Positions 7,922-50,075 of a DNA stretch of 58,205 nt are shown piece by piece. Each line of letters opens with the position of its first letter. The stretch's first letter is position 1. The position numbers and the translations under genes are program-made. Location: positions 1 to 58,205 of the IMG/VR virus record IMGVR_UViG_3300037189_013105; one strand, 5' to 3'. Under the pieces are notes generated by a model. That model did not search any database. It was not told where the DNA came from and worked only from the letters and a program-made list of their open reading frames with translations. Origin of the DNA: a virus.

Positions 7922-10096
7922 TTGTTCACCGATAAACTCAACCAATCCGATTTTGATCTTTTAAATTCCGCCCTGAAGCATTCGCAGGAAGGGCGACTTG
8001 ACCTTGCCGAACCGTTACTTGCCGAGTTTCTGAAGCGCCATCCGTTTGAACCGGACGTGCTGAACCATCACTGTGACGTACTCTCCAAGAGTCGCAAACT
8101 GCCCGAAGCCTACGAAAAAGCGGCGCTTGGCGCATCGCTTTTCCCCAAAGATTCCAACTGGCATACGGCGGCAAGTATCTGCGCTGGGGCGATGGGTAAC
8201 GTGGAACTGGCGCTCGCGCACACGGAGCGAGCGATAAAGGTTTCGCCCTACAACAATATCGCCAAGTGGAACCGGGCATTGTACCTTCTTGCTCTTGGAC
8301 GATGGGAAGAAGGGTGGAAAGAGTACGAATGCCGATGGGCGAACCGTGCGCCGTGCCGCACAATGAAACCGCATTGGGACGGCACGTATTTGGGCGAGGA
8401 TAAAACGCTTTACCTGTGGTGGGAACAGGGACTCGGCGACACGCTCTGCATGATCCGCTTCATCATCCCGGTTTGGAAAAAAGCCGGGAAACCCAAACTC
8501 GTCATCGAGGTACAGCAACCTCTGATTCCTCTTCTATCGTCGTTTAGCAGGATTCCGACATGGCAGATTGTCGCGCCTCAAAGCGACGGGTCATTTGTCA
8601 CGGAATTTGACGAGCATTTGCCTTTGATGTCCCTGCCGCATATTCATGGAATTAAATCGCCGTCCGAGTTGCCGGATGGCGTACTGTTCAGCGCCTCTCC
8701 TCTTCCTCCAAAGGATGACGGCGCTGATACGACAAAAGCCGATATGAAGTCCTCCCGTATCGGCTTTTGTTGGAAAGGTTCTGCAAGCCACGCGAACGAT
8801 GAGGCAAGAAGCCTGAGCGAAGAACTTGCCGCACGGTTTGCCTTGACCCTGAAGAAGCATGGCGTGGAAGTGGTTTCGCTTGTGCCGGGGGCGAAGGTCC
8901 CGGGCATTAAGGGAAGCGAAGCGTTCCAGACGCCACACTTCGGGTACACCGGGCAAATTATCGCCGGTTGTGACGCAGTGGTTTCGGTGGATACGTCGGT
9001 GGCGCACCTGACGGGCAGTATGGGAAAGTCTCTGATTGTCCTGACTCCGAAGGCGGCGGATTACCGATGGGGGATAACGGGTGAGCATTGTTTCTGGTAT
9101 CCGTCTGCGACCCTCTTGCGGCAGGATGTTCAGGACGATTGGGAAACCGTCCTGCTACGCGCCGTAGAGCGTGTGACGGGCGTTGCTGTGACGGAGTTGG
9201 AACCCGCGCCTCCTGCGCCGGAACCGGAACGTGACCCGCACAAGTTGGAAATGCCATCGTCACAGTTTGATGTGCTTGCCGGGGATATCCCGGTTGCTGT
9301 CGGTGGCGTTCCTCTGTACCGATTCTATTACCATCTGGCGATTATGCTGGACGCCAGGAACATCGTGGAGACGGGAACGTACTGCGGCGCGGCGACGGTG
9401 TACCTTGCGGCGGCGGCGAAGCACTTGGGCGGGAAACTGGTGACAATAGACGATTCTTTCCTCTCCAATTCGGTGGAGGGCAACATTGATTCTATGATTG
9501 TCGCCAAGAATGCGGTCAAGAATCTGGACGTGGAAGGCGTTGTCCGGTTCATGGACGGCGATAGCGTGGAATCCCTCGCCCTCCTTGCCGATGGCGGCGA
9601 CCTCAAGGACGTTGACCTTATCGTTCTGGACGACGACCATAGCGCGGGGACTTTGCTCAAGGAACTTGAGACGGTGTGGGCGCACCTTCGACCCGGCGCA
9701 ATCGTGCTGTCGCATGACGGCATGAACTACCACACACCGGGCGTTCAGGTGGCGTTCAAAGAATTTGCCCGAAGGCACGGCGTTGCCCCAATCTACCTGC
9801 CGACGTTTGGGAGCGTCGTCATGCTACAGAAACCCTATGGCGCGGAACTGACGTACCGATGCGCTCATGGCTGGGTGGCAAAGGGAACGAACTACAGCGC
9901 CGGGGAAGCGGCAGGGATGCGTGACTTTGACCCGATCACGGTAAGCGGATGGGACGATTACATCGGGGTGCGGGACTCTTTCTTCCCCGGCGATAGCGTT
10001 CCTTTGACGCAGCGAGAAGAAGAAGCGTGGATTCACAAGCATTACCCGCTTAATGTGACCGAATCTGCACACTCGGAACGAGTTGCAAGAGAATAA
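7922..10096 (+). CDS. TPR + glycosyltransferase-9-like + SAM methyltransferase fusion, 724 aa
   Basis: Three regions are visible. Residues ~1-150 are helical repeats with TPR spacing (H-T-E-R-A-I-K-V-S-P-Y-N and R-A-L-Y-L-L-A-L-G-R-W-E-E-G). Residues ~160-420 resemble ADP-heptose/GT9-type transferases: W-E-Q-G-L-G-D-T-L near the start and D-A-V-V-S-V-D-T-S-V-A-H-L-T-G (~349-363), the usual sugar-nucleotide site. Residues ~445-650 look like a class I SAM methyltransferase (V-E-T-G-T-Y-C-G-A-A-T-V-Y at ~480; V-D-L-I-V-L-D-D-D-H at ~562). Such fusions are known in bacterial glycan pathways. Here it sits between cement and adaptor genes, isolated by terminators, with a TTG start after GGAGGAAGG. 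It may modify virion proteins or host surface glycans; the substrate is unknown. Confidence 0.82.
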   Translation: MFTDKLNQSDFDLLNSALKHSQEGRLDLAEPLLAEFLKRHPFEPDVLNHHCDVLSKSRKLPEAYEKAALGASLFPKDSNWHTAASICAGAMGNVELALAHTERAIKVSPYNNIAKWNRALYLLALGRWEEGWKEYECRWANRAPCRTMKPHWDGTYLGEDKTLYLWWEQGLGDTLCMIRFIIPVWKKAGKPKLVIEVQQPLIPLLSSFSRIPTWQIVAPQSDGSFVTEFDEHLPLMSLPHIHGIKSPSELPDGVLFSASPLPPKDDGADTTKADMKSSRIGFCWKGSASHANDEARSLSEELAARFALTLKKHGVEVVSLVPGAKVPGIKGSEAFQTPHFGYTGQIIAGCDAVVSVDTSVAHLTGSMGKSLIVLTPKAADYRWGITGEHCFWYPSATLLRQDVQDDWETVLLRAVERVTGVAVTELEPAPPAPEPERDPHKLEMPSSQFDVLAGDIPVAVGGVPLYRFYYHLAIMLDARNIVETGTYCGAATVYLAAAAKHLGGKLVTIDDSFLSNSVEGNIDSMIVAKNAVKNLDVEGVVRFMDGDSVESLALLADGGDLKDVDLIVLDDDHSAGTLLKELETVWAHLRPGAIVLSHDGMNYHTPGVQVAFKEFARRHGVAPIYLPTFGSVVMLQKPYGAELTYRCAHGWVAKGTNYSAGEAAGMRDFDPITVSGWDDYIGVRDSFFPGDSVPLTQREEEAWIHKHYPLNVTESAHSERVARE

Positions 10097-43181: not shown

Positions 43182-43375
43182 TGAAACTCAGGAATGACTC
43201 TGCGGCGCTGATGCTGTCGCTGTATGTGATTGGGTGCGTGTTTGTCCTGATCCTCTGGTGGGCGCTGTCGTTACGCAAACCGAATGCGACGTTGAAGCAG
43301 GTCAACCCGGCATTGTTCGCAAAGGCGCAATGGGAGTCCACGTTCCGGCAAGAAATGAGAGGAGAACGGGAATGA
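43181..43375 (+). CDS. Single-pass membrane protein, 64 aa
   Basis: GTG start overlaps the upstream TAG. One strong transmembrane segment ([19 protein letters not shown], ~11-29) with a basic N-terminus and a helical cytosolic or periplasmic C-terminus. Coupled to the methyltransferase gene by ATGA. Function unknown. Confidence 0.62.
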
Positions 43376-44043
43376 CCGTCGATCTGCACCTCGGCGATTG
43401 CCTTGATGTGATGCAGGGGATTCCTGACGGTTCTGTTGATGCTATTGTAGCAGACCCCCCCTATGGAATAAATCAAGACAAAATGGGCGGTTGTCGCGGT
43501 GATAGCAAAGTTACGGCAATGCCGCGACGAGCCATTATCGGAGATGACCAACCTTTTAATCCGTCGCACCTGCTTCATTATCCGATTGTTTGCTTGTTTG
43601 GGGGTAACCATTTTGCCGATAAATTACCTGCGTCATCATGCTGGTTGGTATGGGATAAACGCGACGGAGGAACGCCGGATAACTACTCGGATTGCGAAAT
43701 GGCATGGACAAATTTAAATTCTCCCGCCCGTATTTTTCACCATAAATGGCGGGGGATGATTCGAGCATCAGAACAACGTATTGCAAGGGTTCACCCGACC
43801 CAAAAACCTATCGTTCTGATGCAATGGGTTTTAGATATTTTAAAGATTCCGAAGGGCGCTACTGTTCTTGACCCTTACATGGGAAGCGGCACAACGGGCG
43901 TTGCTTGCGTCAATACCGGGCGCAATTTTATCGGCATTGAGAAAGACCCCGAATACTTCCAGATTGCACAGAAACGCATTCAGGAAGCGCAAAACGGATA
44001 CATCGCCGACCTATTTATGACGGGGAAAGAGGCGGAATTATGA
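43372..44043 (+). CDS. DNA N6-adenine/N4-cytosine methyltransferase, 223 aa
   Basis: Adds methyl groups to exocyclic amino groups of DNA bases. The catalytic D-P-P-Y-G (~29-33) precedes the SAM-binding motif [11 protein letters not shown] (~164-174), the beta-class order. H-P-T-Q-K-P (~140-145) is also typical. A short recognition part lies between. It has no cognate restriction gene, as usual for phage orphan enzymes that protect DNA from host restriction. Adenine is more likely than cytosine-N4 from D-P-P-Y-G, but not certain. Confidence 0.88.
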
Positions 44044-48399: not shown

Positions 48400-48885
48400 A
48401 TGAAAACGTGCGAGATTGTCCATTGCCCCGGCAAGACGGATATTTACGCTTTGCGCCTGTCGCATGAGGTCGATGGTGTGATGACCCTGAGCGTGGGATA
48501 CACGAAAAAGCAAGCGGAGCAAACGGCGGCGCGGTTAGGGTTCACGGTGGTCGCTGAAACGCCCAGAGAATGGGTGGAGGCGCATCAGAAATTTGATTGT
48601 GAAGACGGAGTTAGCACGTATTTTGTCCTTTGCCCTGAATGTGACAAACAGTTTGAGACAAAGCGCCCCGAATCGCAGTTTTGCTCACACGCTTGTTTCC
48701 ATAGGTTCCGCAGGCGGGACATGGTGACCAAGAAAGCGCCTGTTTTACCTGTGCGTTACTGCCAGGTTTGCCATGCCCCTTACCAGAGCAATCAGGCGCT
48801 GAAAAAGTTTTGTACCAGTGAATGCCGCAACAAGGCGAACAGTCTCGCGCACAAAAAGAACTTTGGATTGGAGGCGATAGCGTGA
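48400..48885 (+). CDS. Double zinc-finger protein, 161 aa
   Basis: Start taken at ATG 48400 after AAAGG. The N-terminal half is alpha/beta (L-S-V-G-Y-T-K-K-Q-A-E-Q-T-A-A-R-L-G-F). The C-terminal half has two zinc-ribbon/treble-clef modules: C-P-E-C-D with C-S-H-A-C (~88-108) and C-Q-V-C-H with C-T-S-E-C (~129-149), each followed by a basic helix (F-H-R-F-R-R-R; R-N-K-A-N-S). It probably binds DNA. Its stop overlaps the Dcm start, suggesting co-translation with the methyltransferase. Confidence 0.72.
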   Translation: MKTCEIVHCPGKTDIYALRLSHEVDGVMTLSVGYTKKQAEQTAARLGFTVVAETPREWVEAHQKFDCEDGVSTYFVLCPECDKQFETKRPESQFCSHACFHRFRRRDMVTKKAPVLPVRYCQVCHAPYQSNQALKKFCTSECRNKANSLAHKKNFGLEAIA

Positions 48886-50075
48886 CGCATTTATCCCTGT
48901 TTTCAGGCATTGGCGGCATCGATATTGCCGCACACTGGGCAGGATTTGAGACTATCGCCTTTGTGGAGCGTGAACCATTTTGTCAGTTAGTTTTGGCAAA
49001 GAACTTCCCCGGAGTACCCATTCATGACGACGTTACGACATTCGACGCTGAGTCTTTTCGAGGACGAGTTACCCTCCTGTCAGGAGGATTCCCCTGTCAG
49101 GACATCAGTATCGCAGGGAAGAACGCAGGATTATCGGGCGAACGTTCAGGACTATGGTTCGCCATGCTTGACGTTATTTCCAGAGTCAAACCCCGGTTTG
49201 TCCTGGCTGAAAACGTGGCTGCCCTCTATAGTCGAGGCATTGACACCGTACTCAGCGGGTTGGAAGAAGCGGGCTACACCGCAGAACCTTTCGTGGTGGC
49301 AGCTTCAGACATGGGAGCGCCACACCGACGCCAACGAGTCTTTATCGTCGCTGAACGACGAGAGCTCGCTGAACTGGATAACGCCAACAGCGGTACAGAT
49401 TCAGCGCTCGGACATGGAGAAACGAACGGCATACCGAGCGAGTATCGGGCGCAAGTACCTTGCAGGAACGCTGGAGGAACAGTTACAGAATTGGAGAACG
49501 CCTTGCGCCAGAGATCATCATCCCTGCATAGACCCAGAAGTGAAGATAGAGCGTGGGCAGAGGACGGACGGGCAATTGATGCTGGCGCATCAGGTGACCC
49601 GCAAACAGTTGACCCCGGAGAGTTGGGCGACTCCCGCATCAGCGGATGCGATAGGGTCTCACGGCGACGGTCAGGGACGGTCACTCAGGACGGACATTTA
49701 CAACCTGAAGCATCGCACCGAGTTCCCGACGCCGAGGGCGAACAAGGTGGGCGGATACAGCAGTCCGGGATATGCACCGACATTGCAGCAGGTGATACAG
49801 GGAGTCTTGAATCCGTCGTGGGTGGAAAATTTGATGGGCTTTCCAGAGGGATGGACGGATGTTTCCGATTCCCCGCCCGCCCCGGCGAAGAACAGCACGA
49901 ATGGGAAGCGCCGCGAACGATCACCAGCAAGCTGCCTGACCGTGCCAAACGATTGAAAGCGCTCGGTAATGCTGTCGTTCCCGCACAGGTCTACCCTATC
50001 CTCGTAGCCATCGCAAACCGAATCCATCGCACAAGTCTCGCACACACTTGTGCGATGTGCGAGAACACGAAATAA
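48882..50075 (+). CDS. dcm: C5-cytosine DNA methyltransferase, 397 aa
   Basis: Methylates C5 of cytosine. Motifs in order: I, S-L-F-S-G-I-G-G (~4-11); IV, G-G-F-P-C-Q-D-I (~67-74, catalytic Cys); VI, E-N-V-A-A-L (~112); VIII, R-R-Q-R-V-F-I-V-A (~149-157); X, L-G-N-A-V-V-P-A-Q (~369-377). A long region (~160-345) between VIII and X is the target-recognition part and is full of Gly, Asp and Arg. GTG start overlaps the upstream TGA. The last ~17 residues (T-S-L-A-H-T-C-A-M-C) come from a dispersed palindrome. Bases 49024-49956 also encode a second protein in another frame. Confidence 0.92.
   Translation: MTHLSLFSGIGGIDIAAHWAGFETIAFVEREPFCQLVLAKNFPGVPIHDDVTTFDAESFRGRVTLLSGGFPCQDISIAGKNAGLSGERSGLWFAMLDVISRVKPRFVLAENVAALYSRGIDTVLSGLEEAGYTAEPFVVAASDMGAPHRRQRVFIVAERRELAELDNANSGTDSALGHGETNGIPSEYRAQVPCRNAGGTVTELENALRQRSSSLHRPRSEDRAWAEDGRAIDAGASGDPQTVDPGELGDSRISGCDRVSRRRSGTVTQDGHLQPEASHRVPDAEGEQGGRIQQSGICTDIAAGDTGSLESVVGGKFDGLSRGMDGCFRFPARPGEEQHEWEAPRTITSKLPDRAKRLKALGNAVVPAQVYPILVAIANRIHRTSLAHTCAMCENTK
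49024..49956 (+). CDS. Nested overlapping gene inside dcm, 310 aa
   Basis: A complete frame, one base offset from dcm, with CGGAG nine bases before its ATG. The translation is not random: it begins L-S-L-F-E-D-E-L-P, has four W-x-T-P-type units (N-W-I-T-P-T-A, N-W-R-T-P-C-A-R-D, S-W-A-T-P-A-S-A-D, F-P-T-P-R-A-N), and ends with L-N-P-S-W-V-E-N-L-M-G-F-P-E-G-W-T-D-V. From memory these features mark a family in phages and prophages often seen beside C5 methyltransferases. The same bases encode G-K-F-D-G-L-S-R-G-M-D-G in dcm, a motif also usual there. Function unknown; possibly a specificity or accessory partner. Confidence 0.72.
   Translation: MTTLRHSTLSLFEDELPSCQEDSPVRTSVSQGRTQDYRANVQDYGSPCLTLFPESNPGLSWLKTWLPSIVEALTPYSAGWKKRATPQNLSWWQLQTWERHTDANESLSSLNDESSLNWITPTAVQIQRSDMEKRTAYRASIGRKYLAGTLEEQLQNWRTPCARDHHPCIDPEVKIERGQRTDGQLMLAHQVTRKQLTPESWATPASADAIGSHGDGQGRSLRTDIYNLKHRTEFPTPRANKVGGYSSPGYAPTLQQVIQGVLNPSWVENLMGFPEGWTDVSDSPPAPAKNSTNGKRRERSPASCLTVPND
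50037..50057. repeat. Dispersed palindrome, copy 8 (end of dcm)
   Basis: CTCGCACACACTTGTGCGAT core, reverse complement of copy 10. Flanking bases repeat CATCGCACAAGT and TGTGCGAG, forming a larger cluster at 50025-50062. Confidence 0.85.

Follow-up and report, generated by a model that had tools for sequence, protein, structure and literature searches.

A reading frame nested in a phage dcm-like gene probably supplies the small domain of a two-subunit C5-cytosine methyltransferase

We analysed a 58,205-nucleotide (nt) stretch of viral DNA (IMG/VR record IMGVR_UViG_3300037189_013105, positions 1 to 58,205; hereafter the window), in which a dcm-like C5-cytosine methyltransferase (C5-MTase) gene, here called alpha, contains a second gene, beta, in another frame. 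Judged from sequence, the locus very likely encodes one two-subunit C5-MTase, alpha plus beta, from a single piece of DNA. C5-MTases consist of a large domain with motifs I-VIII and part of motif X, and a small domain with motif IX and the target recognition domain (TRD) (PMC5944983). Splitting of these enzymes between motif VIII and the TRD, whether natural or artificial, is tolerated (PMC5944983, PMC3404938). In the window, alpha is without motif IX and beta has a counterpart of it at the matching place, which was counted in favour of the two-subunit reading. An earlier note on this DNA, made from the letters alone, had reported a 310-codon open reading frame (ORF) out of frame inside the dcm gene; this ORF is present, at offset +1, and is the beta gene listed here with the other features of the locus.

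48882..50075, + strand: alpha gene (dcm-like C5-MTase), 397 aa, motifs I-VIII and X
49011..49014, + strand: GGAG, Shine-Dalgarno (SD)-like by sequence, 9 nt 5′ of the beta ATG
49024..49956, + strand: beta gene, nested in the +1 frame of alpha, 310 aa, ATG start, WxTPxA region and putative motif IX
49092..49109, + strand: alpha motif IV PCQDIS (catalytic Cys), PCQ being invariant in 53 alphas
49209..49220, + strand: alpha motif VI ENV, from sequence and conservation
49258..49281, + strand: beta GWKKRATP block, inside the IV-VIII part of alpha, both frames constrained among relatives
49332..49349, + strand: alpha motif VIII region QRVFIV, from sequence and conservation
49375..49392, + strand: beta unit 1 WITPTA, from sequence
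49492..49509, + strand: beta unit 2 WRTPCA, from sequence
49624..49641, + strand: beta unit 3 WATPAS, from sequence
49723..49740, + strand: beta unit 4 FPTPRA, from sequence
49807..49860, + strand: putative beta motif IX LNPSWVENLMGFPEGWTD (dcm-frame shadow ESVVGGKFDGLSRGMDG), nearly invariant in 90 betas
49953..49982, + strand: alpha motif X LKALGNAVVP, G362/N363 invariant or nearly so

Alpha contains the C5-MTase motif set of motifs I (FSGIGG), IV (PCQ), VI (ENV) and VIII (RxR), plus motif X (GN..VP). Among the 53 alphas, little or no variation is seen in ENV, RxR and the two motif X residues. The protein matches phrog_363 at 2e-77, and the Pfam family DNA_methylase matches it at 2e-42 over residues 1-164 only. 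In a profile search of the PDB, M.HhaI aligned to alpha over motifs I-VIII only, and most other matches also stopped near motif VIII. The AlphaFold2 (AF2) model of alpha has a predicted local distance difference test (pLDDT) score of ~97 at residues 1-60 and mostly >85 up to residue 170, a confident motif X helix, and low confidence at residues 171-350; its best Foldseek matches were M.HhaI and M.HaeIII, over ~167 columns. Alpha has no motif IX in its own chain, and a TRD and motif IX are not found together in that chain. In the alpha frame, the region between motifs VIII and IX shows no constraint. Beta ends with a stop codon at 49954-49956, on the first residues of alpha motif X. The earlier note had named two C5-MTase motifs in the dcm frame. 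PCQDIS is indeed motif IV, but GLSRGMDG is no such motif: it is the dcm-frame reading of the motif IX DNA of beta (LMGFPEGWTD), where the dcm frame is the less constrained of the two frames.

Beta matches phrog_1008, labelled DNA methyltransferase, at 2.7e-19 over residues 15-283, and this family is matched by 90 of 90 beta relatives. LSLFED (residues 9-14), four [WF]xTPx units and LNPSWVENLMGFPEGWTD lie where they had been described, except that unit 3 ends in S and not in A. Beyond LNPSWVENLMGFPEGWTD, beta has just a short tail. By its position and its resemblance through intermediates, LNPSWVENLMGFPEGWTD appears to correspond to canonical motif IX (L.PRE.ARL.GYP). Motifs I-VIII, a beta-type motif and then motif X occur in one chain in Gordonia phage Baddon gp4 and at the loci that we labelled L136 and L233, the motif IX of these single-chain relatives being LSPVFVEWMMGLPRGWVTD, LNPDWVEWLMGFPIGWT and LNPDWVEWLMGYPISWT, respectively. 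In mycobacteriophage Rebeuca, gp80 holds motifs I-VIII, while gp79, read in another frame with a 50-nt overlap, carries TPxA units, an IX-like motif and motif X. Tandem forms, with a beta chain bearing IX and then X, were found at the bacterial-genome loci L064, L104, L112, L119, L123, L130 and L135, where alpha stops near motif VIII, and at L214. A hidden Markov model (HMM) of motif IX built from the betas scored Baddon gp4 at 26.8 bits and Rebeuca gp79 at 13.8 bits. Since IX is found beside X in the single-chain and tandem relatives, the same modules appear to exist in three forms, joined in one chain, split in tandem or nested in two frames; the nested forms keep X in alpha.

Substitution rates were calculated from independent pairs of relatives at 80-97% identity, separately for alpha codon positions 1/2/3. 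Upstream of beta these rates are 0.094/0.038/0.352, and in the overlap up to motif VIII they are 0.121/0.063/0.259. Between VIII and IX they are 0.350/0.131/0.094, and in motif IX itself 0.181/0.057/0.042, followed by 0.107/0.048/0.238 after IX and 0.074/0.036/0.247 after the beta stop. As alpha position 1 is beta position 3, the constraint is on alpha until motif VIII, then on beta, and again on alpha after IX; at finer resolution, the first of these changes falls at the end of VIII. Clear constraint on both frames is limited to a zone ~60 to 20 codons upstream of the VIII end, where the alpha third position is slowed down to 0.19, versus 0.3-0.5 elsewhere; this is consistent with true double constraint. 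True dual coding over ~930 bases had been proposed for this overlap. Both frames are coding, but the constraint is relayed between them and the zone in which both are held is short. An absence of purifying selection on the second frame, named in the earlier note as evidence that would speak against the proposal, was not seen, as beta is constrained from VIII through IX.

Two relatives of the window, L004 and L006, show the same direction of constraint, in small counts, and carry inserts of 75 and 18 nt, both multiples of three. The 75-nt insert of L004 lies directly after motif VIII, and both frames are kept. In the nearest viral relatives, L005 and L004, the alpha protein is nearly unchanged when compared with window positions 48882-49355.

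The frequency of the arrangement was assessed in samples that represent the nearest relatives and not a random draw of all C5-MTases. A search of bacterial genomes with the beta alignment yielded 380 relatives, 80 of which were kept: 68 are nested at +1 with alpha extending past IX, nine are tandem and two have offset 0. Alpha accompanies beta in 79 of these 80 loci; the remaining one is a 2.9-kb fragment. With beta as the query, 79 of 80 viral loci are nested at +1. When alpha alone was used, 72 of 80 viral loci were nested at +1, two were in a single frame, one had offset +2, two were truncated and three were without a scored motif IX, which agrees with the earlier suggestion of a fixed overlap. 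Homologous dcm genes with a broken second frame, named in the earlier note as refuting evidence, were not seen: no full-length close relative with a simply broken second frame was found among these 80. L254, L258 and L275 were rejected as relatives without a nested frame, as inspection shows nested betas with a degenerate motif IX, and L282 and L290 were rejected because both are truncated. The median identity of the alpha N-terminal domain among nested members is ~49%. The nested pair seems to be the usual form of a large group of phage and prophage C5-MTases.

Beta matches were also found in 28 of 295 genomes in the family of a Kluyvera strain (Enterobacteriaceae), some of them weak or interrupted. 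A second beta match in the genome of Kluyvera sichuanensis G012:C7 (L298, ~165761-166474) belongs to a prophage-like methylase with a divergent motif IX, LNPALSLWLMGLPPEW, and the profile match reads through one TAA. On the Paenibacillus polymyxa plasmid pAP1 (L052, 1501-2991), the nested frame of the plasmid dcm gene has two motif IX copies, LNPTWVECLMGFPLDWT and LNPAWVECLMGFPLGWT, which suggests an internal duplication. The record of Paenibacillus larvae phage Diva names the nested ORF “g49 internal gene”, so that the ORF had already been noticed. A literature search of open papers did not find the phage-wide arrangement described, although such a description may still exist.

The arrangement could potentially be explained by programmed frameshifting, in which ribosomes would slip by +1 into the beta frame once past motif VIII and return before motif X, yielding one protein. 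We regard this as improbable. The relay of constraint from alpha to beta and back is equally expected under frameshifting, and single-chain relatives do exist. However, the nested forms would require two shifts, and the beta frame is open far upstream of the switch: across the final 110 alpha codons up to the VIII end it is open in 179 of 214 loci (84%), versus 13% expected, while the third (+2) frame is open over the same codons in 1.9% of loci. Beta is moreover already constrained 60-20 codons before the switch, and an SD match is present at the first beta ATG in 62% of loci, versus 21.5% at ATGs of other frames and 16% at later beta ATGs. The alpha frame is open through VIII-IX in most loci, versus 7% expected from permuted beta codons. 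The count for alpha (213 of 213 open) is partly built into the selection of loci, and the fair figure is given by nested versus tandem tallies, which are 68 versus 9 in bacteria and 79 versus 1 and 72 versus at most 1 in viruses. The open upstream frame, the SD-linked first ATG and the GGAG 9 nt 5′ of the beta ATG in the window favour an independent start of beta over a programmed frameshift, no search aimed at frameshift signals having been made.

In 76 of 208 loci, beta starts at one conserved place, ~71 codons before PCQ and adjoining the alpha start; in loci read individually, this is 3 or 4 nt after the alpha start. As the two starts lie within ~4 nt of each other in this large subgroup, one ribosome site could serve both subunits. 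The alpha and beta ATG codons of L018, for example, are at 2274 and 2278, and L057 and similar loci also have starts within ~4 nt.

It is still less probable that beta is an unrelated protein, such as a regulator, overprinted de novo and resembling motif IX by coincidence. No Pfam or NCBIfam family covers beta, as would be expected of such a protein, and its N-terminal half shares some of its DNA with alpha motifs IV-VIII, both frames being constrained there. On the other hand, motif IX is absent in alpha and has its counterpart in beta at the matching place, IX stays beside X in the single-chain and tandem homologues, and alpha is present at every bacterial locus found by beta alone apart from the 2.9-kb fragment. 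The earlier note had raised the possibility that the two frames arose by overprinting and act together. The first part does not extend to the C-terminal part of beta, which appears to be the own motif IX of the methyltransferase, in frame with X in single-chain and tandem relatives; only for the N-terminal part of beta and the disordered middle of alpha is overprinting plausible. The second part fares better, as the alpha and beta products very probably act together.

The +1 frame of alpha is open over 321 codons, and the longest open run of the third frame is 49. When synonymous codons were permuted in 20,000 shuffles that kept the dcm protein and its codon usage, the mean open length of the +1 frame was 115, and 321 was reached in 2 of 20,000; in the reciprocal test, with beta fixed and openness of the dcm frame scored, the observed alpha length was reached in 1 of 20,000. 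A compositional artefact, in which codon bias opens the +1 frame and the repeats are shadows of dcm residues, is the least credible explanation: GC-rich genes often have open +1 frames and some motifs of one frame are indeed shadows of the other, but a chance origin is refuted by these permutations and by the substitution pattern, in which the most variable position in VIII-IX is the third codon position of beta and not that of alpha, and the excess of open beta frames among relatives is not shared by the +2 frame.

M.EcoHK31I and M.EaeI are two-subunit C5-MTases of one kind. The smaller M.EcoHK31I gene was reportedly found, by Lee and colleagues in 1995, to lie inside the larger one in another frame, and the smaller gene of the window is likewise nested out of frame in the larger. 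M.EcoHK31I (YGGCCR) is described as carrying motifs I-VIII and X on the larger polypeptide and IX on the smaller (PMC3404938); the predicted layout in the window is alike, with I-VIII and X on the larger alpha and IX on the smaller beta. Given this shared division, the window pair appears to belong with that kind, the comparison being one of motif layout alone. L049-L051, small enterobacterial plasmid methylases, were rejected as EcoHK31I relatives, being canonical or without a nested ORF. The split of M.AquI also falls between VIII and IX, but there the small subunit carries IX as well as X (PMC3404938), whereas X of the window is in the alpha frame; the M.AquI layout is matched by tandem-split relatives such as L064, L123 and L135. 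Both window proteins fall in PHROG “DNA methyltransferase” families, but phrog_1008 and phrog_363 are separate families whose entries mention no overlap. In ShiLan, an HNH endonuclease is encoded by the second frame of an insertion in a phage methylase (PMC11855218). The window similarly has a second protein out of frame inside a phage methylase, but its beta matched no HNH family in profile library scans, is in the +1 frame, and appears to hold the own motif IX of the enzyme.

Several points weigh against a two-subunit enzyme. The motif IX HMM built from betas gives no score to two canonical plasmid MTases, and the tie to canonical motif IX therefore runs via relatives of the single-chain and tandem types. 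Modelled by itself with AF2, beta scores poorly (pLDDT 56) except for the motif IX stretch, which comes close to 90. Searching the PDB by profile returned only chance matches and no significant sequence relative of beta. The WxTPxA region is assigned a probable role in recognition from its position. The predicted TRD of M.EcoHK31I is placed in the larger subunit (PMC3404938), whereas the selection pattern of the present family assigns the VIII-IX region to beta.

In the two-subunit enzyme that we propose, alpha would be the large catalytic domain, responsible for S-adenosylmethionine (AdoMet) binding and catalysis through motifs I-VIII, followed by a poorly ordered stretch and then a motif X helix that would pack back onto the large domain. 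Translation of beta would begin independently within alpha, at a separate ribosome site and in the +1 frame, and its product would form the small domain, comprising the VIII-IX region (probably for target recognition, with the WxTPxA units) and motif IX. This division would be the split tolerated by C5-MTases in which the cut falls between VIII and the TRD and X stays with the large domain. From the sequence patterns alone, we infer that both proteins are made and associate; they would assemble on DNA as one enzyme in which beta recognises the DNA and reads its sequence. In the phage, the most likely outcome would be methylation of phage DNA at a specific site, which may, for example, protect it from host restriction or mark it.

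One gene flanking the locus encodes a small protein resembling a zinc ribbon, and the other a Rad52-family annealing protein; the alpha start codon is a GTG that overlaps the upstream stop (GTGA). Next to the methyltransferase gene of the window, no restriction endonuclease was recognised. Portal, terminase, integrase and primase-helicase genes are found in the record, and the presence of the first three makes a temperate tailed phage the likely source. The record (window 1-58205) has no transfer RNA, and the 36-58 kb part of the window has no close DNA relative among 50,697 phage records. Further methyltransferase-like genes are found at window 43234-44043, which matches the phrog_67 DNA methyltransferase family (3e-52), and at window 7922-10096, which matches phrog_2675 (4e-10) over residues 477-633 only.

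The two-subunit architecture itself is already known, while its wide occurrence and the passing of constraint between frames seem to have been described too little. More tentatively, these loci may form a large class of C5-MTases, for the most part unannotated and obligately two-subunit, that is spread over phages and prophages of many phyla. In this class, the frames would time-share the DNA in the order catalytic domain, recognition domain and motif X, one subgroup would have close starts, and the variable number of WxTPxA units would make beta an exchangeable specificity subunit; we hold this wider proposal to be possible but doubtful. For annotation, the dcm gene alone is without motif IX and probably without a recognition domain, and the other half of the enzyme is often unannotated. 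With the missing half in the nested frame, specificity prediction or cloning from the dcm ORF alone is expected to fail unless the nested frame is left intact, and codon optimisation of the dcm ORF would destroy it. Few long overlaps on the same strand are backed by evidence for both products in bacteria and phages, and here hundreds of examples show how DNA can be shared by two proteins, with constraint handed over from one frame to the other and not imposed on both everywhere.
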